DNA of 64,000 nucleotides, taken from positions 4,159,035 to 4,223,034 of the forward strand of contig NZ_CP156660.1 of NCBI RefSeq assembly GCF_039851975.1, in the 5' to 3' direction. The notes under the pieces were generated by a model. It saw only the letters and a program-made list of their open reading frames with translations. It did not search any database and was not told the origin of the DNA. Made by a program: the position numbers and the translations under genes. This DNA comes from Desulfoscipio sp. XC116 (GTDB lineage Bacteria > Bacillota > Desulfotomaculia > Desulfotomaculales > Desulfallaceae). This document shows, one piece after another, positions 30,598 to 64,000 of the stretch. Numbering within the stretch: position 1 is the stretch's first letter; every line of letters starts with the position of its first letter.

Positions 30598-30678
30598 GGT
30601 TATCCTCCTGCCCTATATGTTTAATTATTTTTAGCTATTCGACGCAGTAATATATAAATCCTTTTTCTCGCGCTTAAA

Positions 30679-43332: not shown

Positions 43333-44562
43333 TCAGGCGCTTTGGCCGCCTGAAATTTTCACCGGTGCGGAAATCACTTTGGGCCGTATGCCACAACGAC
43401 GTACAAAACGGGCCATACGCCGGAAAGCTTCACCGAGCTCATCAATGGAGGCGGCATAAGAAACCCTGACAAAACCCTCGCCGGATTGCCCAAAAGCATT
43501 GCCGGGCACCAGAGCTACTTGCTCCTGCTTAAGCAATTCCTCCGCAAACTCTTCGGAATTCAAACCGGTAGCGGATATCCGGGGAAAAGCATAAAACGCT
43601 CCGCCGGGCTCAAAGCAGGGCAGGCCCATATCCAGGAATGACTGCACCACCAAATGACGGCGGCGATTATAGTGCTCGACCATGCGGCGCATGCCGGGCT
43701 GGCCGTTTTTAAGCGCCTCCAGCGCGGCCATCTGTGCGGTAATAGAAGTACACAACATTGAATACTGGTGTATTTTAGTCATGGCACTAATGATATCGGA
43801 ATGGCCGGCCGCGTAACCCACCCGCCAGCCTGTCATAGCGTAAGCCTTGCTGAAACCGTTGAGCAGCACCGTGCGGTCCCGCATACCGGGCAGCGACGCC
43901 ACACAAGTATGCTCACCTACATAGGTCAGGCGGCCATAAATTTCATCGGAAATAACGATAAGGTCGTTTTGCACCGCTACTTCGGCTATCTTTAACAACT
44001 CATTCCGGTCCATCACCGCGCCGGTGGGGTTATTGGGATAGCAAAGCAGTAATACTTTGGTCCGCGGCGTAATGGAAGCCTGCACCTGTTCAGCCGAAAT
44101 ACAAAACCCGTTTTCCGGCCCGGTGGGCATGAACACGGGCACCCCACCGGCCAGAGTGGCACAGGGAGCATAGGAGACATAGGACGGCTCGGGCATCAAC
44201 ACCTCGTCCCCGGGCTCAAGCAGCACACGCATGGCCAAATCCAGCGCTTCGCTCACCCCCACGGTAATAAGTATCTCATTGCGGGGGTTATATTTAACAT
44301 TATAAGTATGTTCAAGGTCGGCGGCTACAGCCTCTCTCAATTCCAGAAGGCCCCAATTGGAAGTATACATGGTATACCCCTTTTCCAGAGAGTAAATACA
44401 CGCCTCCCGGATGTGCCAGGGGGTAACGAAATCGGGCTCGCCCACACCCAAAGAAATTACGCCTTTAGTCTCGACGACCAAATCAAAAAATCTTCTAATA
44501 CCCGAGGGCGGAAGATCACGCACCGCCGGATTGACTTTTTCCGACCAGTTTTTTTGTATCAT
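43333..44562 (-). CDS. Class I/II PLP-dependent aminotransferase
   Basis: A 409-residue aminotransferase of the aspartate/aromatic group. LCYPNNPTGAVMD, VISDEIYGRLTY and the PLP-lysine segment LNGFSKAYAMTGWRVGYAAG are present, with the C-terminal arginine region EGFVRVSYAAS. The substrate cannot be fixed by sequence; an aromatic amino acid or alanine role is possible given iorAB/paaK nearby. The start overlaps the end of the Lrp gene by 4 bp (ATGA), so the two are translationally coupled and both lie behind the T-box. Confidence 0.92.
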   Translation of the reverse strand: MIQKNWSEKVNPAVRDLPPSGIRRFFDLVVETKGVISLGVGEPDFVTPWHIREACIYSLEKGYTMYTSNWGLLELREAVAADLEHTYNVKYNPRNEILITVGVSEALDLAMRVLLEPGDEVLMPEPSYVSYAPCATLAGGVPVFMPTGPENGFCISAEQVQASITPRTKVLLLCYPNNPTGAVMDRNELLKIAEVAVQNDLIVISDEIYGRLTYVGEHTCVASLPGMRDRTVLLNGFSKAYAMTGWRVGYAAGHSDIISAMTKIHQYSMLCTSITAQMAALEALKNGQPGMRRMVEHYNRRRHLVVQSFLDMGLPCFEPGGAFYAFPRISATGLNSEEFAEELLKQEQVALVPGNAFGQSGEGFVRVSYAASIDELGEAFRRMARFVRRCGIRPKVISAPVKISGGQSA

Positions 44563-45050
44563 GGGGAAATCATCAGCCTCCTGTCTTCCTCACCGTCTTC
44601 CATAATTACTCCGTCCTGTTTATAGGTCTTCAGAACAAAATGTGTGGTAGTACTAACCACCCCTTCGATAGTAGCCAGCTTAGTAGAAACAAAATGAGAT
44701 ACTTCTTTCATGCTGCGGCCTTCCAGAAAGACCGCCAAATCATAGGTGCCGCTCATCAAGCGCATACTGCGCACTTCCGGAAACCGGTAGATACGTTCGG
44801 CTACGGCATCGAAACCGACATCCCGCTGGGGGGTGATACGTACCTCAATCAAGGCACTGACTTTTTCTTCGCCCATTTTTTCCCAATTAATCAGCGTCAT
44901 ATAACTAAGAATAGCTTTTTGATTTTCCAGTTCCTTAATCATGCCCCGCACCTCAGCCGCGTCAATATTAAGCATAACAGCAATTTCATCCGGTGTTAAT
45001 TTGGCATTATCCTCAAGCAACTCTAATATTTCTCTGGTGGTATTATCCAT
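44559..45050 (-). CDS. Lrp/AsnC-family regulator, T-box controlled
   Basis: A 163-residue protein with an N-terminal helix-turn-helix (DNTTREILELLEDNAKLTPD, AVMLNIDAAEVRGMIKELE) and a RAM effector domain (SALIEVRITPQRDVGFDAVA, VRSMRLMSGTYDLAVFLEG). Such proteins bind amino acids. The ATG at 45050 follows AGGGGTGA; the longer frame to 45197 lies inside the T-box leader and is not coding. It is coupled to the aminotransferase gene and probably senses that enzyme's amino acid. Confidence 0.9.
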   Translation of the reverse strand: MDNTTREILELLEDNAKLTPDEIAVMLNIDAAEVRGMIKELENQKAILSYMTLINWEKMGEEKVSALIEVRITPQRDVGFDAVAERIYRFPEVRSMRLMSGTYDLAVFLEGRSMKEVSHFVSTKLATIEGVVSTTTHFVLKTYKQDGVIMEDGEEDRRLMISP

Positions 45051-45061
45051 TTTAGTCACCC

Positions 45062-45350
45062 CTTTCCGATTATCATCTTTGGCGCACGCATCAAAAAACC
45101 CCGTCCCTGGACAAGGGACGAGGTTTTTACTCGCGGTACCACCCTGATTGATCGCCATTACGCATACGATCCTCTCGGGGCCCTTTAACGGGGGCAAATC
45201 GGCTCAGCTTACTATCCGTTGGATTTCAGCCTGCGGCTCCAGGGCGGCACGGGCACACACACCCGCCGGGCTCCCACCGTTCCCGGCTCGCTGCGCGATG
45301 TATTGTTACCCTTATTCCCCTTCCAAGCATTGCTTTTATCAATGAATTAG
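45062..45350 (-). promoter_or_regulatory. T-box leader RNA upstream of the Lrp-aminotransferase operon
   Basis: On the minus strand the canonical T-box antiterminator sequence GGGTGGTACCGCGA lies at 45144-45131 and is followed by a terminator at 45129-45093. Upstream is a Stem I with the typical distal part GCCGGGAACGGTGGGAGCCC and a closing segment GCCGCCCTGGAGC. The uncharged tRNA that it reads would stop termination. I could not fix the specifier codon by eye. Confidence 0.9.
45093..45129 (-). terminator. T-box terminator hairpin
   Basis: On the minus strand CGTCCCT pairs with AGGGACG around TGTCC, flanked by AACC/GGTT pairs and followed by a T run. It is mutually exclusive with the antiterminator formed by the T-box sequence. 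Confidence 0.88.
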
Positions 45351-45454: not shown

Positions 45455-46822
45455 TTATAAAGTAAGTTCACCGTCCGGAGTATTAACCAGCCTGAGCACA
45501 TTTTCTTCATCACCGGTTAAAGCGTTGATATACACCAGATAAGTCTCCGACCCCTGCATGCCTTTAAATTCCCAGGTGAGTATTTCTTTTTCCACACCCA
45601 CCGGAATGAGGGCCAACCTTCCTGTTCCCTCTATATTGAGTCTGTCACTGAGCAGCATACGGGCCCGGCCCTCCGTAAGCTTTGGCTCGGCCAGATTGCG
45701 CTTATGATGGGACATTAAGTACCCCCTGGCATCAAAGGCCACCACTTGACCGTTATCCAGAGCCACAGTAACTTTGACAAGATCCGGGTATATAATTATC
45801 CCGTCCTGGGCAAGTGCATAATTAAAAGTAACCGTATTGTCATTACGCTGGTGATAGCTTATTTGCATATCTTTATAGCCGTGATCCCGCAAATAATTTT
45901 CCGCCCGAGACTGGGCCCTGGCAATACTCCAACCGCCTTTAGACACGTCACGAGGCGTAACCATCCATATCAGATGCCCCCCCTGCATAGAAATATCCGC
46001 CACAGTCGGTTCGCCAACCGCGGAGCCGCCCTGGCGACGGGCTATTTCCACCCGGTGGGCCCGGATACTGCCATTTACTTCACCGGTTACCCGGGCCAGC
46101 ACGTTTTTGTCCCCGGGTTTATCATAATATTGCATGGCTACAGATTTAGCCCGGGACTCGCTTATTTTGTCACCGGTTAGGCCACGGGCCCGCCCTTGTT
46201 CCATATGATCGGAAAAAGGACCGTCATAAATCAGGGTGGGATAAGCTTGCATCTGCCGGTCCATATCCTGGAAGCCGCCACCGGCCAGTTTTTGGCCTTC
46301 CCCGGCTAAACGGCTTGAGCTGGAGAGTACCAGCTCGGACAGGTTTAAGCTGCCATCCGATATATCGGCGTGTATTTTGCCGAGTTCCTTGTTCAAGCTT
46401 GAGGATTGATTATAAAGCCGGTTCACTGTATCCCACTGTTCCCGGGTAAGCGGTTTGCCGTCGGCCAACTGCCCGGCCAACGTATTTGAGTAATCCCCCA
46501 GCTGAGTTATAAACTTGGCCGTCCGCCCCAACAGGGCATCACCCACCGGCAGTTGAGTCAGGCTGTCCAGCGCTTGATTTGACTGCTGCCAAATTTCCCC
46601 AAAGATCTGCACACTCTTCTCCGGACCGGCCAGTACCATGCTTTTACCCAGCAGAACTTCCATGGTTTGCACATGGTCGGCCAAATTGTAAAATGCCCGC
46701 TGATAATTATTATTTATTGCTGTCTGCAGCATCATTTTGGAATTGCGCTCTTGATAACCCCAATAGCCAATACCCAAGGCTGCAACAGCCAATATCCCAA
46801 GAACAGCATACCACTTTCTCAT
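45455..46822 (-). CDS. ypeB: Germination protein YpeB
   Basis: A 455-residue spore protein with an N-terminal membrane anchor (WYAVLGILAVAALGIGYWGY), a helical N-domain and two or three C-terminal PepSY-like repeats (EGRARMLLSDRLNIEG and similar). It keeps the cortex-lytic enzyme SleB in place and inactive until germination. It is adjacent to and downstream of sleB, the standard order. Length matches the family. Confidence 0.93.
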   Translation of the reverse strand: MRKWYAVLGILAVAALGIGYWGYQERNSKMMLQTAINNNYQRAFYNLADHVQTMEVLLGKSMVLAGPEKSVQIFGEIWQQSNQALDSLTQLPVGDALLGRTAKFITQLGDYSNTLAGQLADGKPLTREQWDTVNRLYNQSSSLNKELGKIHADISDGSLNLSELVLSSSSRLAGEGQKLAGGGFQDMDRQMQAYPTLIYDGPFSDHMEQGRARGLTGDKISESRAKSVAMQYYDKPGDKNVLARVTGEVNGSIRAHRVEIARRQGGSAVGEPTVADISMQGGHLIWMVTPRDVSKGGWSIARAQSRAENYLRDHGYKDMQISYHQRNDNTVTFNYALAQDGIIIYPDLVKVTVALDNGQVVAFDARGYLMSHHKRNLAEPKLTEGRARMLLSDRLNIEGTGRLALIPVGVEKEILTWEFKGMQGSETYLVYINALTGDEENVLRLVNTPDGELTL

Positions 46823-46870
46823 AAGCTATGCCTCCTAATTTGTAAGCTTCATATTGGAATTACCCCTGAA

Positions 46871-47602
46871 CTAGTGAGCGAAAACATGGCGGCCAATACG
46901 TGCGACAATGTTCCTGCTCCATATCCAGGGGGCGACTTGCTTGCCCGGATTCCAGAAGAAAATTGCGCCGCCGGTGGGATCCATACCCGCCATAGCCTGT
47001 CTGGCGGCTTGTAAAGACTCATTGGTAAGCGGCCTGGCATACTGACCGTTAGTTACCGATTCAAACGCATGGGGTTGATAAACAACCCCGGATAAGGTAT
47101 TGGGGAAAGAAGAGCTTTTAACCCTGTTCATAATTACGGCGCCTACCGCCAGCTTACCGGAATACGATTCGTCGGCCGCCTCTCCTTCGATAACCCGGGC
47201 CAGCAGCTGTATATCTCTGGATGTTTCCACAAATCCAGGGGCCACATATTGCTTTTGGGCACCACCGGCAGCGGCTTTATTCCGGCCACCGCCTATACCC
47301 AATGCCGCCTGCGTACTCGGACCCACCACGCCATCGGCCCGCAGCCCGTTTTTACGCTGAAAGTCGAGCACAGCCCGGTAGGTAGCGGAACCGTATGTAC
47401 CGTCTACAAAGCCATGAAAATACCCCCACTGATTAAGTTTTTGCTGCAGTACGGTTACCTCACTGCCGCGACTGCCCCAGTAAAGCGTCTTTACCTGGGC
47501 CTGGGCACTGTTGCCTGACAGCAAAATCAGGGCGGTAAACAATATAATTATTGTGCCAAGTATTATGGTCATGCATTTTTTGGCTATCCCGATTATTAAC
47601 AA
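46871..47602 (-). CDS. sleB: Spore cortex-lytic enzyme SleB
   Basis: A 243-residue lytic transglycosylase with a signal peptide (ending GNSAQAQ), an N-terminal peptidoglycan-binding domain (LYWGSRGSEVTVLQQKLNQW) and the C-terminal catalytic domain (LLARVIEGEAADESYSGKLA, PHAFESVTNGQYARPL). It degrades cortex at germination. The TTG at 47602 lies 5 bases after AGGGGGTG; an ATG at 47572 would give a shorter signal peptide and is the other candidate. It precedes ypeB. Confidence 0.93.
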   Translation of the reverse strand: MLIIGIAKKCMTIILGTIIILFTALILLSGNSAQAQVKTLYWGSRGSEVTVLQQKLNQWGYFHGFVDGTYGSATYRAVLDFQRKNGLRADGVVGPSTQAALGIGGGRNKAAAGGAQKQYVAPGFVETSRDIQLLARVIEGEAADESYSGKLAVGAVIMNRVKSSSFPNTLSGVVYQPHAFESVTNGQYARPLTNESLQAARQAMAGMDPTGGAIFFWNPGKQVAPWIWSRNIVARIGRHVFAH

Positions 47603-47754
47603 AACAGCACCCCCTGATCTATTTGTCCATAGTTTTTCTGAAAATAACAAAACCTATGTGTGTAAAAATTTTTTTAGCATCAAAGCAAGGATTGGCAGAT
47701 TCCGGGCAGAATAATACCAATAGAGCATTACTTTACTTAATACTACAAAGTATT

Positions 47755-50425: not shown

Positions 50426-50746
50426 TCATACACACCCGGTCGGCGTGGGCAAACCTGCCAGTTTGCAGGCGCCCTTGGCCGGACCGGCTGGAAAAAGCTC
50501 ATAAATATACTTTAAATTGCAGCCCGTATCTTGACAAAGCTTACGTACCATGGGTGCAATTTGGTATTGCTTGTAATAATCACGCAGATAGTTAATTACT
50601 TTCCAATGATCTTCGGTCAACCCGACAATTCCTTCGGAGGCGGCAAAAGCAACAGCTACATCTTCATTCCACAAGTCCGGATCAATCATGAACCCGTCCT
50701 CGTCCAACTCTATTTCCACGCCGTTTACGGCAATGGCAGCGGACAT
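50426..50746 (-). CDS. dsrC: Sulfur-carrier protein DsrC
   Basis: A 106-residue protein with the flexible C-terminal arm KGACKLAGLPTPTGCV, which keeps both redox cysteines (the last at the penultimate position, the other eleven residues before). This is the true DsrC form that leaves DsrAB as a trisulfide. ATG 50746 is chosen because GGAGGTG lies 9 bases upstream; the frame continues six codons. It follows dsrMK directly. Confidence 0.97.
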   Translation of the reverse strand: MSAAIAVNGVEIELDEDGFMIDPDLWNEDVAVAFAASEGIVGLTEDHWKVINYLRDYYKQYQIAPMVRKLCQDTGCNLKYIYELFPAGPAKGACKLAGLPTPTGCV

Positions 50747-50785
50747 AGCTTTACGCACCTCCATTAAAAGGCAACCGAAATACCA

Positions 50786-52168
50786 TTATTTCCAAACCAA
50801 CGCTTTACCCACGAGATCGATAAGACCTTTAACCTCCACACCAAGTTCATGTTCCTCAACCATGGGATACAGCTGAGCTTTACAAATGGAACAAGGCGCG
50901 CACAGGATACCGTCGCCGTCTTTGCCAACCCCGGTAGCCCTCACTTGCTCGGCCTTTTTATTGCTAAGCAAAATGCGGCGCTGGTACATTTCCGGATCGT
51001 CGAACAAAATACCTGAGCCGCCGCCACAGCAGAAATTATCCGCACCGTGCGGATACATTTCCCTGAAATCGGAAACGGAAGCACGCATCAGCACACGCAT
51101 ATTTTCATTCAGCCCGCAGGCCCGCACATAGTTGCAGGGGTCATGCAGCGTAACGGGTTTGGTGTTTTTGGTCGGGTCAAGCTTTAACTCATTTTTGCGA
51201 ATCATGTCCGCCACTTCATCATGGATATGAGTGATGGGCCAGCGTATCGGCCGGTCGGCCAGGGACGGGATGTACATCTTGGCTGCCCGCCAGCCGTGCC
51301 CGCATTCGCCCCAAACAATTTTCTTGATACCGAGCTCCTGGGCAGCGTTCAGAAGACGCATGACATTGCCCCGCTGGGTCCAGTACTGGTCGAACAACAG
51401 GCCAAAATTACCGGCCTCGGTAACGGTACTGGGAATGGTCCAGTTGGCGCCGATATAAGTAAAATACATGCCCGCGCCCATCAGCGTATAAGGGTTGAGC
51501 AAGAAGTCGGCCGATGAGGGAATATACATGATATCGGATTCGGGCTTGTCAACGGGAAACTCCACTTCCACGCCGAACTCGTCCATGATTTCTTCGGACA
51601 TGAATTCCAGGGTATCCACAATAGCAGGTTTGGGGAAATTAGTATGGTTGCCCACTTTTTCCATGGCTTCGCCCACAGCGGCATGCAGCTTGGGTGTGAT
51701 GCCCAGCCAGTGCAGCAATTGGCGACCGATAAAGGTTACCTCGCAAGTATCAATACCGAAGGGGCACACGTGGGCGCAACGACGGCACTGACTGCACTGG
51801 TAGAAATAAGAATACCATTGTTCAATGATATCCAGGCTGATATCTTCGGCCCCTACCAGTTTGCCAAACCAGCGCCCCTCCAGGGTAAAGTACCGCTTGT
51901 AAATCTTGCGGATCAGCTCGGCCCGGTTGGTGGGAATATTGTTGGGATCCCTGGTGCCCAGATAGGTGTGGCAATTTTCCGCACACTGGCCGCACTTGGT
52001 GCAGGATTCCATGGCCATTACAAAAGAGCGGAATTTTTTGCGAATTTCATCCAAAAATTCAATTGCTTTTTCCGGTTTTAACTCATCGGGCACCGGCTCA
52101 ATGTGAATTTTACGCATTTCGTCCGGCGTTGCCCGTTGCGGCTGCACCATACCTTTATATTCCGGCAT
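50786..52168 (-). CDS. dsrK: DsrK, HdrD-like iron-sulfur subunit of the DsrMK complex
   Basis: A 460-residue protein with two [4Fe-4S] motifs (CTKCGQCAENCHTYLG and CSQCRRCAHVCPFG) and the CCG domains (GECGHGWRAAK, NFCCGGGSG, LCAPCSICK) that form the special catalytic [4Fe-4S] site of heterodisulfide-reductase-like enzymes. It reduces the DsrC trisulfide with electrons from DsrM. It lies 3 bp after dsrM. The absence of dsrJOP is typical of Gram-positive sulfate reducers. Confidence 0.97.
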   Translation of the reverse strand: MPEYKGMVQPQRATPDEMRKIHIEPVPDELKPEKAIEFLDEIRKKFRSFVMAMESCTKCGQCAENCHTYLGTRDPNNIPTNRAELIRKIYKRYFTLEGRWFGKLVGAEDISLDIIEQWYSYFYQCSQCRRCAHVCPFGIDTCEVTFIGRQLLHWLGITPKLHAAVGEAMEKVGNHTNFPKPAIVDTLEFMSEEIMDEFGVEVEFPVDKPESDIMYIPSSADFLLNPYTLMGAGMYFTYIGANWTIPSTVTEAGNFGLLFDQYWTQRGNVMRLLNAAQELGIKKIVWGECGHGWRAAKMYIPSLADRPIRWPITHIHDEVADMIRKNELKLDPTKNTKPVTLHDPCNYVRACGLNENMRVLMRASVSDFREMYPHGADNFCCGGGSGILFDDPEMYQRRILLSNKKAEQVRATGVGKDGDGILCAPCSICKAQLYPMVEEHELGVEVKGLIDLVGKALVWK

Positions 52169-52171
52169 AAC

Positions 52172-52996
52172 TTACACCCCCTCTTCAGCGGCATCGCCGG
52201 CAGGCACACCAAGCCCTGCCTTACGGGCCGCGGCTACATCAATATTGGGTAAACCGGGGGCGGGATCATGATAGACCCGGTTAACAATATAACGTTCGGC
52301 AAACATACCGAATATATGCATCAGTTTGCTAAATGGGAATACAATCAGCAAAATCTGCACCAGCAGATAGTGAGTCAGGAAAAACCCGCTTTCCAAAAGC
52401 TCCATATGCACTACGGGCTGGAACATAATAAGCGCCGCCATATACTCGTACACCAGTTCATAATGAATGTGATAAGTAGGAATGAAACGCATAATATTGC
52501 CTATGCCCACCAGCACCAGCAGGTAAATCAGCCATAAGTTATCACTGGGTTTGGTCACCAGCTTAACTTTATCCAGGGCATAACGCCTATAAAGCAGGTA
52601 TAACAGAGCAACAAATAATACTATACCAAAAACAGAACCCAACAAATCGGACATTTCCACACTAAGTTCCGGTGTAATACCCAGGCCGGGAATCATCGCG
52701 AACTGTTCACCCAAAGTACCAAAACCGACAATGTGCCCGCCAAGAATGTTAAGCAGGGCAAAGTGCATCAGCAGGGCGCCGGCCCACAAGGCTTTGTCAA
52801 ATCTAAACAGATTGCGGAACAAAAATGCTTCCGAGCCTATCCTCACAGCAACCTGGCCATTGGTTTGCAGCCAGGGCGACAGCGTAACATTATGCACAAT
52901 ACGCGCACCGGCCCAGCGCCCCAAACGGTAAAGTACGCCCAGGGTAAATAAGGTCACTGTTATATACGGAAGTATTTGTCCAATTAGTAACTTCAC
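52172..52996 (-). CDS. dsrM: DsrM, NarI-like membrane cytochrome b subunit
   Basis: A 274-residue membrane protein with five or six helices and spaced histidines (LMHFALLNILGGHIV, FFLTHYLLVQI) expected to bind b-type hemes. It takes electrons from menaquinol and passes them to DsrK. The GTG start at 52996 overlaps the stop of a 17-codon frame by 4 bases, and its Shine-Dalgarno (GGGAGGTG) lies inside that frame, so translation is coupled. Confidence 0.95.
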   Translation of the reverse strand: MKLLIGQILPYITVTLFTLGVLYRLGRWAGARIVHNVTLSPWLQTNGQVAVRIGSEAFLFRNLFRFDKALWAGALLMHFALLNILGGHIVGFGTLGEQFAMIPGLGITPELSVEMSDLLGSVFGIVLFVALLYLLYRRYALDKVKLVTKPSDNLWLIYLLVLVGIGNIMRFIPTYHIHYELVYEYMAALIMFQPVVHMELLESGFFLTHYLLVQILLIVFPFSKLMHIFGMFAERYIVNRVYHDPAPGLPNIDVAAARKAGLGVPAGDAAEEGV

Positions 52997-53047: not shown

Positions 53048-53233
53048 TTAATTTTCCTCCAAAGTGACAGCACCGCTGGGGCATACGCTGACACAGGTTT
53101 CGCAGCCAAGGCAGTCGTCGACATTAACCACAGCAGCTTTACCGTCCTCCATTTCCAGAACAGATGCCGGGCAATTTTCGACACATTCACCACAGCCCTC
53201 ACATTTGTCGCGGTCAACGGTTACTACGAACAT
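53048..53233 (-). CDS. 2[4Fe-4S] ferredoxin of the dsr operon
   Basis: A 61-residue ferredoxin with two CxxCxxCxxxC motifs (CEGCGECVENCPASV and CLGCETCVSVCPSGAV), both complete. The ATG at 53233 has GGAGGTG upstream; the longer open frame to 53419 has no support. As first gene before dsrMK it probably exchanges electrons with DsrK or with the sulfite-reduction machinery. Confidence 0.93.
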   Translation of the reverse strand: MFVVTVDRDKCEGCGECVENCPASVLEMEDGKAAVVNVDDCLGCETCVSVCPSGAVTLEEN

Positions 53234-53563
53234 TACGTTCACCTCCTTAACATAATTATGTTTGTACACTTCCTGCAGGCAGTCCCGCCTGAACAAGACC
53301 GCCTCCATAGAATAACGACGGGTAAAACCGTACAAATCCCTTATACCATATTCGTTGTCTGCGAAATTATTCCTTCCGCAAAGAGACAACAACAACCGGT
53401 TTTTTTCAGAATTAAGCAAAAAACCTGCAAAAAAACGACAACCCTGGCCGGGTCACCAACCGCCATATATGTTAATTAACTGACTATCCTTTTCGCTTGT
53501 AATAATTGTATACCAATACGGTGCAGCCAGTCCATAGGGGACTTATGGTATTAAGCATAAGCA

Positions 53564-59879: not shown

Positions 59880-60113
59880 TTATTCCGGATCTTCCGTCAT
59901 GCCCCGGCCTTTAAGACCGTACATTGTGCTGCTGCCGGTAGAAAAATAGATCATTGTACCGTCGTTAATCAGCGCTGTGCAAGCTTTTTTAATTTCTCTC
60001 ATTTTAGCGTCCGGCATTACCTTTTGAACGGCTTTTTCAATATCTTTAAAGTAAAATTTGGTTTTCTTGCTGGTTTCAGCAAATTGAACAATAACCTTTT
60101 TCATTTCTTCCAT
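59880..60113 (-). CDS. dsrD: DsrD, winged-helix protein of the sulfite reductase operon
   Basis: A 77-residue protein with the DsrD pattern: KTKFYFKDIEKAV, VKKACTALINDGTM-type helix, and the end YFSTGSSTMYGLKGRG. DsrD has a winged-helix fold and is reported to activate DsrAB. ATG 60113 gives the usual MEEMKKV start, and GGAGGG lies upstream. A family B repeat lies between it and dsrB. DsrD presence marks the reductive (sulfate-reducing) direction. Confidence 0.95.
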   Translation of the reverse strand: MEEMKKVIVQFAETSKKTKFYFKDIEKAVQKVMPDAKMREIKKACTALINDGTMIYFSTGSSTMYGLKGRGMTEDPE

Positions 60114-60136
60114 ACTAACAATCTCCCTCCTTTGGA

Positions 60137-60257
60137 GCAAGTTCTTTATTCAGAGAGATTCAACTCGCCCTGATTTTAGAACTAGCTGCATGACTTGGCT
60201 GGCGTTGTACTGCCGCTTATAGAAGCGGGAGACTTACGCCAAGTCAGTCAGGTTAAA
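60137..60257 (+). repeat. Family B structured repeat, copy 3, between dsrB and dsrD
   Basis: GCAAGTTCTTTATTCAGAGA opens it; GTTCT/AGAAC close hairpin one. TGACTTGGC pairs with GCCAAGTCA around CCGCTT-ATAG-AAGCGG as hairpin two, and GTCAGGTTAAA ends it. Differences from copy 1 at 14110 keep the stems. It begins at the dsrD ribosome-site region, so on the dsr message it forms the dsrB-dsrD junction. A further CCCGCTG/CAGCGGG hairpin lies at 60289-60316, after dsrB. Confidence 0.8.
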
Positions 60258-60346
60258 TAAAAGGTTATACTGTAAATAAAGGGTTAGCCCCGCTGCTGCG
60301 GTTATGCAACAGCGGGTCTAAACCCCGCATAATTAATTCAGTAAAA

Positions 60347-61534
60347 TTATTCTATCCCACCGGCGACTTTTGATACATTCCAGGCTGCATCAGTGAACTT
60401 GAACTGAGTGCTGGTCCGCCAGGTGTCATAAGCCAGGCGATAGTCGTCAATCAGGTGATCAGTGAATTCCAGGCCGGTCTTCTCGAAGAATTTTTCCCAG
60501 CCAATACGCTCGGCCCAATCGCCCAGACGCTCGTACTTGTTGGCATCAACAGCGTAGGCTTCGATAATCTTCTTGACGTTTTCCACCACTTCCGGGAATC
60601 TCGGGAAGGTGTTCGGCAGCCAGGGCACGACAACCTTGGAGAATTTGGGCTGGCTGATCCGGTTGGAGATCTTGCCGCCGGCCAGGATGGTCACGCCGTC
60701 GCCTTCCTTGTCGGAAAGAGGCAGTGCCTGGCACATAGTGTAGCAGTTACCGCAGAACATGCAGCGCTCTTGCTTAATTTTAACGGTTTTGCCGCCTTCC
60801 GGAGTTTTGTCCGGAGAAATGGCGCCCACCGGGCAAGCTGCAATGGCCAGAGGTATTTCACAAACCCTGTCGATAACCTCGTGGTCAACGATAGGAGGCT
60901 TGCGGTGGTAGCCCAACAGAGCAATGTCCGAGCAGTGCACGGCACCGCACATATTCAGACAGCAAGCCATGGATACGCGCACTTTGGCCGGCAGTGTCAT
61001 GCCCTGGAAGTATTCAAACAGTTCATCCGCCACAGCCTTAACCATGGAGGAAGCGTCAGTGGCCGGGGTATGGCAGTGTACATAACCCTGGGTATGCACA
61101 ATGTTGGTTACGCCGGCGCCTGTGCCGCCGATGGGGAACTTATAGCTGCCGGATACAAACTTACGGCTTTCCAGATCCTTCTTCAGTGCTTCCAGTTTCT
61201 CAACGCTGTCTACCAGGAACTCAATGTTGTTCCGAGTGGTAAAGCGTACAGAGCCAGCACAGTATTTATCGGCAATGTCGCAGATTTCTCTGACGTGCTG
61301 TACGGTCATAAACCGGGCGCCGCCGCATCTTACGGTGTATACCTTGTCACCGGTTTCAGATACGTGCACTAAAATACCGGGTTCCAGCACTTCGTGGTAA
61401 GCCCATTTGCCATAGTTATTTTGGATGACAGGAGGGAAGTACTGCCAGAAATGTCTGGGGCCCAGGTCTGTCAGCCTGTCCTTCAGGGGATCCTTGGGAT
61501 CATATAAGCCGAGTCTATCTAAAGATAAAGCCAT
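60347..61534 (-). CDS. dsrB: Dissimilatory sulfite reductase, beta subunit
   Basis: A 395-residue subunit. [20 protein letters not shown] holds the siroheme-[4Fe-4S] cysteines; a ferredoxin domain with [11 protein letters not shown] lies near residue 260. [13 protein letters not shown] and [20 protein letters not shown] are conserved DsrB segments. With DsrA it forms the alpha2beta2 enzyme that reduces sulfite to the sulfide level on DsrC. AGGAGGT precedes the ATG, 12 bp after dsrA. Confidence 0.98.
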
Positions 61535-61546
61535 TACACAAACCTC

Positions 61547-62965
61547 CTATCTCTTATGTCTGGCCCGATATTCTTTAATATCCCTGGTCCAGCCGCCGGG
61601 TACGTCCTCTTCCTTCCAGAAGATATACGGGTTTTCACGCGGAGTTTTAACCATCTGCGGTGCGGGCGGCAGTCCGATAATCTCAAGGAATTTCGGCAGA
61701 CCAAAGCGCTGCATCAGTTCACCCAAACGCTCACGGTTTTTGCCTTCTTCCATCCAGAATTCCCATACTTTCTCGATGAACTCTTTAATGTTGTCGTAAG
61801 GCGGTTCGGCCTTCATGAAAGGAACGATGAGCGTAGCCATTTGGGCGCCTTCCAGAATAGGTGCCTTGGCTCCCAAAAGAATGCTGATACCGGTATCTTT
61901 ACCAGGTCTGAGCGCCTTGGGCATAACGTTGATACAGTGCATGCAGCGGGTGCATTCTTTGTTGTCGATCACGAGCTCGCCGTCAACCATGGACATGCAC
62001 TTGGTGGGGCACAGACCAATAACTTCTTTTTGGATATCAAATTTACCCCAATCTCTTCCCCTATGCGCACCGCCGTTAGGCAATACATCACCGGCGATGT
62101 AAGCTTTAACCGCATCCTGGTCAATGCGGATATCGTCTCTCCAGGTACCGATAAAGGACATATCGGAACGAGCAATAGAGGCCACGCAGCCGTTCGGGCA
62201 GCCATCAAACTTGAATTTGAACTTGTACGGGAAAGCCGGACGGTGTAACTCGTCTTGATAATACTGAGTCAATTCATAGCACAAAGCCTGGGTATCATAG
62301 CAGGCAAATTCGCAACGGGCTTTACCGATGCAGCAGGAAGGTGTGCGCAGGTTGGAACCTGAACCACCGATATCCTGGCCCAATACGTGAGTAAGCTCGA
62401 AGAAAATTGGTTCCAATTGCTCGGTGGTGGTCCCCAACAGCACCATGTCACCGGTGGAACCGTGCAGGTTCATCAGGCCGCTGCCCCGGTATTCCCACAG
62501 GTCACAAACAGTCCGCAGGAAATCGGAATTATAAAACTTACTGGCCGGCTGATTAACCCTGATGGTGTGGAAATGGGCAATTGAAGGATATTTTTCCGGC
62601 AGGTCGGAATATCTGCCGATAACGCCGCCGCCGTAACCAAACACGCCGACGATACCGCCGTGTTTCCAGTGTGTTTCACCTTCGTCAAAGGATACTTGAA
62701 GCTGACCAAGCATGTCCTCGACAACATCCCTGTCGATGAGCATTCTGTCATCGGCCAGTTTCCTTCTGTGCAGGGCTTCCTGCTTGGCATCGGATACAAA
62801 ACTGGGCCACGGGCCTTTTTCCAACTCTTCCAGGTCGGGAATCTCATGTTTAACTTTAAAATTCTTAAGTTCTTCGTCCGTATAATTTTTTAATTCTGCC
62901 TCGGAGTAAATTCTTGTCTCTTCGTACTTAATTTCCTTTTGCGGTTCTTTTGGCTCAAAAGGCAC
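61547..62965 (-). CDS. dsrA: Dissimilatory sulfite reductase, alpha subunit
   Basis: A 472-residue subunit, slightly longer than many. GSGSNLRTPSCCIGKARCEF and FDGCPNGCVASIARSD supply the siroheme-coupled cluster cysteines; GLCPTKCMSM and CTRCMHCINVMPKAL form the added ferredoxin domain. Sequence style (with dsrD present) is that of the reductive type. GTG start with AAAGGAGGT upstream. A 200-nt leader and duplicated promoter-like modules lie upstream. Confidence 0.98.
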   Translation of the reverse strand: MPFEPKEPQKEIKYEETRIYSEAELKNYTDEELKNFKVKHEIPDLEELEKGPWPSFVSDAKQEALHRRKLADDRMLIDRDVVEDMLGQLQVSFDEGETHWKHGGIVGVFGYGGGVIGRYSDLPEKYPSIAHFHTIRVNQPASKFYNSDFLRTVCDLWEYRGSGLMNLHGSTGDMVLLGTTTEQLEPIFFELTHVLGQDIGGSGSNLRTPSCCIGKARCEFACYDTQALCYELTQYYQDELHRPAFPYKFKFKFDGCPNGCVASIARSDMSFIGTWRDDIRIDQDAVKAYIAGDVLPNGGAHRGRDWGKFDIQKEVIGLCPTKCMSMVDGELVIDNKECTRCMHCINVMPKALRPGKDTGISILLGAKAPILEGAQMATLIVPFMKAEPPYDNIKEFIEKVWEFWMEEGKNRERLGELMQRFGLPKFLEIIGLPPAPQMVKTPRENPYIFWKEEDVPGGWTRDIKEYRARHKR

Positions 62966-63185
62966 TGCAATACCTCCTTTTGTTAGTAGACTAAATAGCT
63001 AGAAAATTTATGATTTAATGGCTGATTCGATAGCCCGGTGACACCTCCTTCCAAATATAAATAACAAAGCCGCAAAGACGCGAAAACTCAGCCTTACTAA
63101 ACGCACCTTTTACGTCTGAGGCCAAGGAATAATATACAGCTATAACTTTACAAGGAAACAGTATAGAACAGTATAGTAAGAAATT

Positions 63186-63324
63186 CGTTATTTTTTGTAT
63201 TATTCCTTCCTGCCCATGTTATTTTTTTAAAAACCTGCTCATAACTTGTCCATAATAAGAAAAAAGAACTTTCTATTAATTGTAACCAATTAGCGAGCCA
63301 TAGTCTATAGGTGGTAGATGGCAA
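63186..63324 (-). promoter_or_regulatory. dsrA upstream module 1: SigH-like promoter plus conserved box
   Basis: On the minus strand AGGAATA (63210-63204), 13 bp, CGAAT (63190-63186) resembles a sigma-H promoter (AGGAxxT...GAAT). About 100 bp further upstream is the box TTGCCATCTACCACCT (63324-63309). Both are repeated in module 2. Transcription from here would give a 200-nt dsrA leader. Confidence 0.5.
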
Positions 63325-63542
63325 TTGTCCGCAAGCACCGTTTTGCCGCTCCTTATCGAATATAAAAGCCGCACCGGGCTTTTAGCCAATGAGCATGTTC
63401 AACAAGTCACAATGCCCGGCGCACGTTCTCGTTTTCCTTATATTTGATACCTGTAACCAAGCGGGCAACAACGGATGTAAACCGATCTGATGTAGAAGTT
63501 TGCTCAAGTCAAAAAATCAAAAGCTTTGCACCATATAATTGT

Positions 63543-63649
63543 ATTCGTTACTTTCTTATAATATTCCTTCCTAAGATACGACTTTTTTATATCCCACGGT
63601 TTTATTTTAACTGACCGCACCGTCTTAGTCCACAGGTGGTAGATGGCAA
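63543..63649 (-). promoter_or_regulatory. dsrA upstream module 2: duplicate of module 1
   Basis: AGGAATA (63568-63562), 14 bp, CGAAT (63547-63543), preceded by AGGAAGG overlap as in module 1; the box TTGCCATCTACCACCT recurs exactly at 63649-63634, followed in both copies by GACTA. Spacing between box and promoter is 65 bp here versus about 98 bp in module 1. The rest of the 62966-63740 gap holds no gene. Confidence 0.5.
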
Positions 63650-63673
63650 AATCATCGCCGCTATCTAATTTGC

Positions 63674-63701
63674 TTGCTGTCGATTATGTCTATGCTATAA
63701 T
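63674..63701 (+). promoter_or_regulatory. SigA-type promoter of hflX
   Basis: TTGCTG (63674-63679), 16-bp spacer, TATAAT (63696-63701). It lies 40 bp before the hflX start on the plus strand and only 25 bp from the dsrA module 2 box, so the two divergent units share regulatory DNA. Confidence 0.7.
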
Positions 63702-63740
63702 TGTTTTTATACATAACGACCATTAGGGATGTGATTATAT

Positions 63741-64000
63741 TTGACCAAAACCGTCTACGGAAATACCCGGGGTCTCAAAAAGTTTGACCTGGATTTATTG
63801 CAAAGTATTTATGACCTGGCAATCGATAAAAGCATGATCATCTCGCTGGAAATAGTCCGGATTATAGCTGATATATCCGGCGGCAGCCAGCGGGAATTGG
63901 CCGTATTTATTGACCGACAGGGACAGGTGGTATCCGTTGGGGTGGGCGATGCCGCAACGGTACAGCTTAAGGCGCAAAGCAAACGACGCGGTGCTTACCG
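63741..64000 (+). CDS. hflX: GTPase HflX (partial, N-terminal part)
   Basis: The first 86 codons of a ribosome-associated GTPase that splits stalled ribosomes. KTVYGNTRGLKKFDLDLLQS and ISGGSQRELAVFIDRQGQVV are typical of the HflX N-terminal domain; the G domain lies beyond the window. The TTG at 63741 with AGGGATGTG upstream is the only start that fits. It is divergent from dsrA. Confidence 0.88.
   Translation, partial: MTKTVYGNTRGLKKFDLDLLQSIYDLAIDKSMIISLEIVRIIADISGGSQRELAVFIDRQGQVVSVGVGDAATVQLKAQSKRRGAY

Follow-up and report, generated by a model that had tools for sequence, protein, structure and literature searches.

The window, which is the whole 64,000-nt stretch of Desulfoscipio sp. 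XC116 DNA that was analysed, carries genes of dissimilatory sulfite reduction on the minus strand. Both dsrAB and fdx-dsrMK are preceded by a short conserved box and by predicted promoters of two types. The features are as follows.

63634-63649, minus strand: distal operator box TTGCCATCTACCACCT, 16/16 positions identical in the relative G022
63604-63632, minus strand: distal sigmaA-type promoter TGGACT-N17-TAAAAT, predicted start near 63597, -35 and -10 100% identical to G022
63542-63570, minus strand: distal SigH-type promoter GAAGGAATA-N12-AACGAATAC, predicted start near 63535, SigH matrix score 17.3
63364-63383, minus strand: weak terminator-like hairpin between the modules, AAAAGCC / GGCTTTT, z-score -0.6
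63309-63324, minus strand: proximal operator box, the same 16-mer, 94% identical in G022
63279-63307, minus strand: proximal sigmaA-type promoter TAGACT-N17-TACAAT, predicted start near 63272, proximal promoters also present in relatives
63182-63209, minus strand: proximal SigH-type promoter GAAGGAATA-N11-AACGAATTT, predicted start near 63175, SigH matrix score 21.0
63069-63123, minus strand: weak leader element of two hairpins, GGCCC..GGGGCTGGGTTTTCGCGTCTTTGTGG, downstream of the proximal SigH promoter and before dsrA
61547-62965, minus strand: dsrA, GTG start at 62965, TIGR02064 over cut-off
60347-61534, minus strand: dsrB, TIGR02066 over cut-off
53535-53551, minus strand: third, diverged operator box ATACCATAAGTCCCCTA upstream of fdx-dsrMK, score 15.0
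53505-53534, minus strand: sigmaA-type promoter TGGACT-N18-TACAAT of fdx-dsrMK
53349-53376, minus strand: SigH-type promoter GAAGGAATAATTTCGCAGACAACGAATA of fdx-dsrMK, SigH matrix score 19.7
53048-53233, minus strand: small 4Fe-4S ferredoxin gene (61 aa, Fer4 domains) before dsrMK
52172-52996, minus strand: dsrM-like membrane subunit, nitrate-reductase-gamma domain over cut-off
50786-52168, minus strand: dsrK, NCBIfam DsrK ranks first (387.2 bits, cut-off 400)
50426-50764, minus strand: dsrC, PF04358, 3.9e-39

The dsrM-like gene matched the NCBIfam DsrM model below its cut-off, and its name was also taken from the adjoining dsrK.

Duplicated promoter-plus-box modules upstream of dsrAB had been described in an earlier note on this DNA, and this layout was recovered. 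The 16-mer is present on the minus strand in two exact copies (63649-63634 and 63324-63309, 325 bp apart), and each copy is followed by a SigH-type element. No further exact copy exists in the 4.26-Mb genome; inexact matches with 2-3 mismatches numbered 35, and the reversed control pattern gave 20 in all. The repeats shared by the two modules are a box repeat of 24 nt and a SigH repeat of 21 nt, the copies of the latter being 361 bp apart; otherwise only repeats of 12-15 nt were found. The operator consensus is approximately TGSCA-N3-AC-N2-CCT-R-TGGAC (the 23-mer form with the TGSCA and CCT blocks is TTGCCATCTACCACCTGTGGACT), and it abuts a -35 hexamer (TGGACT or TAGACT). Counting the -10 as ending at -7, the box lies at -37 to -52 of a sigmaA-type promoter, and its conservation extends upstream to -52 (TGSCA) and downstream into the -35. 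In the box alignment (A1), T18, G20 and A21 are invariant, and the conserved block thus enters the -35 hexamer. The dyad in the box is only partial, and a clear inverted repeat is absent; the model CCAY-N9-RTGG was an uncomputed by-eye reading of part of the sites, and no such claim is made. The box was ruled out as a leader RNA element, as it sits upstream of its own promoter and Rfam gave no match (none at E of 1 or below for 60000-64000, a range that excludes the fdx-dsrMK leader). A plasmid search with the dsrA intergenic region as query returned no match.

Conservation of the box was analysed in 113 genomes of the order, 88 of which have a DsrA-like match. Upstream regions of 1.5 kb (less at contig ends) were collected for one dsrA in each of 69 genomes; left out were weak or fragmentary matches, second copies and a number of good ones (e.g. 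G037, G041, G052 and G070). In a leave-one-out search, in which the seeds of the same genome were removed and the seeds of relatives and the -10 matrix were retained, box matches above 14 on the dsrA strand were found in 20/69 regions with scores of 16-46 (one minus-strand match of 14.9 in G078 being ignored), and no shuffled sequence out of 345 exceeded 11.0. At a cut-off of 15, the final matrix places the box before dsrA in 19/69 regions, G033 dropping out, and the opposite strand gave none. Because the box is conserved upstream of dsrA in 20 of the 69 genomes by the leave-one-out search, a chance origin is excluded. The module is also present in G069, whose DsrA is only 60% identical to the query, and therefore it is not tied to one gene lineage. 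A second sample held 78 of 80 named loci (L046 and L050 left out). Of its 18 loci classed as Firmicutes, 6 have the box and 9 a SigH match; among the remaining 60, whose titles point mostly to Deltaproteobacteria, there was no box and one SigH match.

The GACTA that follows the 16-mer had been taken for a separate part of the box, and the box itself for a part of the SigH promoter; neither reading held. GACTA largely coincides with the -35 hexamer of a sigmaA-type promoter, and it is this separate promoter, 81-233 nt upstream of the SigH-type element, that the box adjoins. A plain sigma-70 scan placed TGGACT-N17-TAAAAT and TAGACT-N17-TACAAT on the minus strand directly after the two boxes, so that both hexamers are present at a spacer within 16-18; the scan gave 5 promoter-like sites against 2.6 in shuffles (sd 1.8), which is not significant by itself. 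The phasing of the -10 was more informative. A matrix of the box plus -35 was built from ten seeds picked without regard to any -10, and it gave 29 sites with scores of at least 12 in the 69 dsrA and 36 dsrMK regions; the 105 shuffled sequences gave one. A hexamer agreeing with TATAAT in at least 5 of 6 positions (A2 and T6 fixed) stands at a spacer of 17 or 18 in 27/29 of these sites, the exceptions being in G046 and G047, whereas 30 other spacers together gave 8. The full matrix, whose seeds were partly found by means of the -10, gave 31/36 at spacer 17 or 18 and 10 at other spacers. Since the -10 is phased in 27/29 sites selected by the box, the box adjoins a sigmaA-type promoter. In the two dsrA modules the SigH promoter follows 81 or 117 nt downstream, and among box matches scoring at least 15 a SigH-type element lies 81-233 nt downstream in 30/34. 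Each module, as predicted from its motifs, is a box with a sigmaA-type promoter and then a SigH-type promoter. The tandem promoters with a shared site, which the earlier note had placed upstream of dsrAB, are thus supported.

The pattern AGGAATA-N12..14-CGAATW matched 8 places in the genome, against 3 for the reversed control. Three of the 8 are at dsr operons, one is within a gene, two are near other genes, and the remaining ones precede minC (by about 33 nt) and zapA (by about 40 nt). The SigH consensus of B. subtilis is RnAGGAwWW at -35 and RnnGAATww at -10, with 11-12 nt between. It is matched by GAAGGAATA-N12-AACGAATAC and GAAGGAATA-N11-AACGAATTT at dsrA and by GAAGGAATA-N11-AACGAATAT at fdx-dsrMK; the sole deviation is the last w of the distal dsrA element (C), and the other two have none. 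The consensus of 30 dsr elements is GAAGGAATAATnnAAAAnATAACGAATA, in which the -10 is nearly fixed as AACGAAT. The pattern RnAGGAwww-N10..13-RnnGAAT gave 36 matches upstream of the 69 dsrA genes against 0.8 in shuffles. Elements were present in 35/69 dsrA regions (shuffled mean 0.8, largest 4) and in 28/36 (fdx-)dsrMK regions (shuffled mean 0.5, largest 3).

The assignment to SigH was examined with an independent matrix made from C. difficile SigH promoters (30 of the 40 listed in PMC7438776, ten rows being dropped). The three dsr elements scored 21.0, 19.7 and 17.3 (ranks 3, 6 and 8 in the window), and the minC and zapA elements 21.2 and 18.1; minC is itself in the C. difficile SigH list (PMC7438776). 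At a score of 13, 13 window positions were reached, compared with 3-6 in five shuffles. Five positions outside dsr score as high as the dsr elements, and one of them tops all. Upstream of spoIIAA, the same AGGA-to-GAA distance was found in 14/29 regions (shuffles 0.3) with a looser GAAn pattern that was picked after the output of the strict pattern had been inspected; L374, with a cut flank, was dropped from this count. The strict GAAT form was found there in 2/30. The distance is 21 or 22 in the dsr elements, as at spoIIAA and minC. The sigH gene is over cut-off in 104/113 genomes of the order, including this one (G000:C1:386090-386683, 381.6 bits against a cut-off of 294.8). The SigH reading given earlier is therefore supported by the independent matrix, by the same element at minC and zapA and by the same spacing at spoIIAA. 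It might be proposed that the AGGAATA-CGAAT elements are read by an alternative sigma factor other than SigH, as their AACGAAT is tighter than the -10 at spoIIAA. This is improbable given the scores of 17-21 with a matrix from another organism and the equal AGGA-to-GAA distances; moreover, every family that bears the element has members with sigH over cut-off.

Several strong matches to the SigH matrix lie outside the listed ORFs and away from dsr. The best one in the window (43327, minus strand, 23.7) was also found by the dsr-trained profile, and it is 749 nt upstream of a PaaK-like phenylacetate-CoA ligase gene (below the model cut-off). The others are at 30662, 14914, 1476 and 1679, all on the minus strand; the one at 30662 is 65 nt before a 227-aa ORF.

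In comparison with G022, identity is 100% and 94% for the boxes, 100% for every -35 and -10 hexamer and 86% and 93% for the SigH elements, against 67% for the remainder of the dsrA intergenic region. The complete double module (box plus SigH, twice) is present only in this genome and G022 among the 69, which would suit a recent tandem duplication whose repeats are leftovers with no added function. This origin is quite improbable: only 12-15 nt repeats exist beyond the box and the SigH element, the box-to-SigH distances differ (81 and 117), the distal elements are 86-100% identical to those of G022 in a region that is otherwise 67% identical, and G024 and G015 pair two SigH elements with one box at dsrA. 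The doubling is local; the module itself is conserved, as a rule in a single copy, at dsrAB and (fdx-)dsrMK in several families of one order.

The distal box lies between dsrA and hflX (TIGR03156 over cut-off), a divergent gene which it might serve instead, and hflX was among the genes for which the earlier note had suggested a search in relatives. A role at hflX is highly unlikely. The box stays with dsr where hflX is not adjacent (L197); G025 has a peptidyl-prolyl isomerase gene in that position, and there the box is kept on the dsr strand. Furthermore, no box match of at least 15 points away from dsrA in the 69 regions, and the box also precedes fdx-dsrMK. The search suggested earlier held for dsrA (19/69), but neither for an hflX operator nor for sat-apr, where 15 genomes gave a single weak match.

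Two profiles were used to search for further targets. The first one (R1), made only from sequence with 20 dsrA sites, was run on the 113 order genomes and gave 26 matches at E<1e-3, all at dsr genes. Twenty are the training sites, and the 6 new ones are at dsrA in G025, G027 (a second one) and G111, at dsrMK in G025 and G027, and at dsrC in G084. The G084 site, without a convincing -10, is 283 nt upstream of dsrC (TIGR03342) in an incomplete genome where no DsrA was found. The next-ranked matches are at dsrMK in G026 (0.0042) and at a position in G019 (0.006). The broader second profile (R3), to which dsrMK sites and the sites of this genome were added, was run on 398 genomes of the phylum with strict filters. 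It gave 6 matches at E<1e-3, again all at dsr genes: three in this genome (two at dsrA, one at fdx-dsrMK), two in G015 and one in G069; 21 further matches at 0.0126-0.05 are about the chance expectation. These results (26/26 and 6/6) support the dedicated dsr regulation that the earlier note had suggested.

The third box, at fdx-dsrMK, scored 15.0, which is marginal by score alone next to the best chance scores of 14.1 (251 kb of apr loci) and 14.8 (10 shuffled windows); it occupies the same place in G022, G024 and G015. The argument for it is orthologous position: of the 36 regions upstream of dsrK, 12 have a box before (fdx-)dsrMK and 28 a SigH element, the regions of G013 and G067 being cut by contig ends. 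Second dsrMK copies (L304, L307, L308, L326 and L327, in G022, G017, G010, G025 and G028) are all without the box, and four of the five are without a SigH match, the G010 copy having two loose ones; perhaps these copies differ in function or control. A box before sat-apr-qmo was sought in 15 genomes (251 kb) and rejected: this genome alone gave a match, which is weak (14.1) and lies some 100 nt before sat. In G034, GAAGGATTTTATAAGTTAAAGTAGAATA is a SigH-type match 167 nt upstream of sat (L262:3461, plus strand; sat by PF01747), and there is none before sat in the other 14 of the 15 sat-apr regions; other SigH matches of these loci lie elsewhere in the regions. Neither element before sat is a general feature.

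A ferredoxin gene like the one before dsrMK directly precedes dsrA in G031, G060, G061, G066, G068 and G069, and a SigH element is upstream of it in all but G066. The ferredoxin seems to be part of the dsr regulon. The ypeB gene and a SleB-like cell wall hydrolase gene (spore germination; 45455-47650, minus strand) adjoin dsrN in the window, and their relatives were found by tblastn within 13-14 kb downstream of dsrK in 20/20 regions; the germination and sulfite-reduction genes are standing neighbours.

The distribution of the elements was also compared with that of aprA. In family f1, 12 genomes have aprA over cut-off; the box is before dsrA in 10 of them (not in G011 and G014), and SigH elements are at both operons in 12/12. 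The four others of this family, G019, G020 and G021 without an aprA match and G023 with one at E=9e-4, have the box at neither operon and no SigH element at dsrMK, and the strict SigH pattern at dsrA fails in all four. However, G019 and G020 keep TAAGGAATA...TACGAATAG at dsrA with the correct spacing, only the first R of the consensus being changed, and G021 and G023 have the variant TATGGAATA (TGGAATA). Judged from these motifs, the SigH promoter at dsrA may survive in two aprA-less genomes, and the loss of SigH elements at dsrA is partial. Within 13-14 kb downstream of dsrK, a dsrC gene was not detected in G019, G020 and G023; the same stretch lacks it in G111 and G112, yet these have box or SigH elements. 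In G031, below the aprA cut-off with a match cut at the contig end, both elements are present. Families f2, f6, f7 and f8 (25 genomes, 24 with aprA over cut-off) gave no box and 2 SigH matches, and the box/SigH arrangement is therefore lineage-bound and not universal. The box is missing from 50/69 dsrA regions, and since many of these genomes have aprA, it is not needed for sulfate reduction.

Taken together, the data probably reflect a regulon of dissimilatory sulfite reduction, with a regulator at a sigmaA-type promoter and a SigH promoter downstream. Its members would be dsrAB and fdx-dsrMK, with a dsrC site as well in one incomplete relative. In the first layer, a predicted transcription factor would bind the box and activate the sigmaA polymerase in a class-II manner when sulfite respiration is possible. 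In the second layer, the SigH promoter 81-233 nt downstream would transcribe the same genes as exponential growth ends. With the sigmaA start upstream of the SigH start, either promoter could supply the full operon. What the sequences themselves show is the anatomy of the modules, with its phasing and conservation, the confinement of the box to dsr genes in the scanned genomes, and its absence from genus-mates that lack aprA. We infer the firing of both promoters, protein binding at the box, an activating role of that protein and the signal to which it responds.

Class-II activation at the box is the likeliest mechanism of the first layer. Class-II activators bind next to or overlapping the -35, and the 16-mer at -37 to -52 adjoins it; an activator is favoured because the box is where such proteins bind. 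The class-II picture is drawn from position alone, and a repressor is possible. The main rival is thus a repressor operator that blocks the sigmaA polymerase at the -35, with SigH as an escape in late growth. The entry of the conserved block into the -35 suits occlusion as well as class-II contact, and the separate SigH element downstream in 30/34 box matches would fit such an escape. On the other hand, the -35 hexamers are imperfect (TAGACT and TGGACT) and the conservation extends as far as TGSCA at -52; imperfect -35 hexamers are common in activator-dependent promoters. The repressor is rather unlikely on these grounds, and the activator remains the preferred reading.

One candidate regulator among the HTH genes near the cluster was examined, an Lrp/AsnC gene (44559-45197), and it was not supported: its relatives occur in 19/20 regions, including those of the box-less G019, G020, G023 and G061. 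It would be a possible regulator only if the box, and not the protein, was lost there. Rex operators are TTGTTAA-N4-TTAACAA-like sites, and this pattern gave 7 matches against 3.9 expected, none overlapping a box. For the HcpR site TTGTGA-N6-TCACAA with up to 3 mismatches, 20 matches were found against 22 expected, and again no box was overlapped.

To our knowledge, little has been described of the control of respiratory genes in Gram-positive sulfate reducers. A literature search of titles and the first parts of abstracts, mostly outside subscription journals, revealed no dsr operator and no SigH control of dsr. The operator abuts and enters the -35 as in CRP/FNR-type class-II promoters; unlike these, it has no clear inverted repeat, and its regulator is only predicted. 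HcpR of Desulfovibrio, of the CRP/FNR family, was predicted to act on TTGTGA-N6-TCACAA before sat and apsAB, and dsrAB is noted as absent from the targets (PMC545781). As there, a regulon of sulfate respiration is predicted here from conserved sites near promoters; the motif is different, the target is dsr and the box does not mark sat-apr. The C. difficile SigH promoters (spo0A, spoIIAA, minC and spoVG) of PMC7438776 have the same two boxes and the same 21/22-nt AGGA-to-GAA distance. The genes driven here, in contrast, are the core of sulfite respiration, and the -10 is nearly fixed as AACGAAT. In the same source, SigH is given as the transition-phase sigma factor and C. difficile spo0A is listed with tandem sigmaA and SigH promoters (PMC7438776). 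Thus spo0A and dsr both have a vegetative promoter in tandem with a SigH promoter; what differs at dsr is that the sigmaA promoter has its own conserved operator and the pair is found at two operons.

The earlier note had suggested a possible link of dsr to growth phase or sporulation onset, and we likewise infer such a link. As a tentative view, sulfite reduction might belong to the SigH regulon in several families of Gram-positive sulfate reducers and have in addition a dsr-specific regulator during growth. If this is true, one sigma factor serves both the terminal respiratory enzyme and sporulation entry, the dsr-specific regulator perhaps senses sulfite or the redox state of DsrC, and the box would be the first dsr-specific operator described in these bacteria. 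The arrangement suggests a regulatory coupling between sulfite respiration and the decision to sporulate. The operator, being short and set in a fixed promoter context, can serve as bait for the regulator, and the SigH element predicts that transcription of sulfite reductase rises at the transition to stationary phase. This is relevant to how spore-forming sulfate reducers persist in starved sediments, and to the question of whether dsrAB transcripts indicate growth or starvation.

Some minor features were also seen in the dsrA intergenic region. The two-hairpin leader before dsrA is a single copy in the genome and was aligned in this genome and 13 relatives (A2). Support is modest: 3/12 pairs have changes on both sides, the z-score of the element is -1.1, and those of the leader hairpins span -1.1 to -2.1; Rfam gave no match for it. 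It could be an attenuator. The terminator-like hairpin at 63364-63383 is no better than shuffles and is invisible in the G022 alignment. Between the two modules, a conserved block TTGTGACTTGTTGAACAT (63412-63395) is also present in G022 and, weaker, in G024; it resembles CRP/FNR-type sites and differs from the HcpR consensus at 3 positions. The sequence TATGGAC(AAG) (63254-63248, minus strand), which lies downstream of the proximal sigmaA promoter and upstream of the proximal SigH promoter, is like the 3' end of the box plus the -35, and this repeat is also found in G022, G024 and G015.
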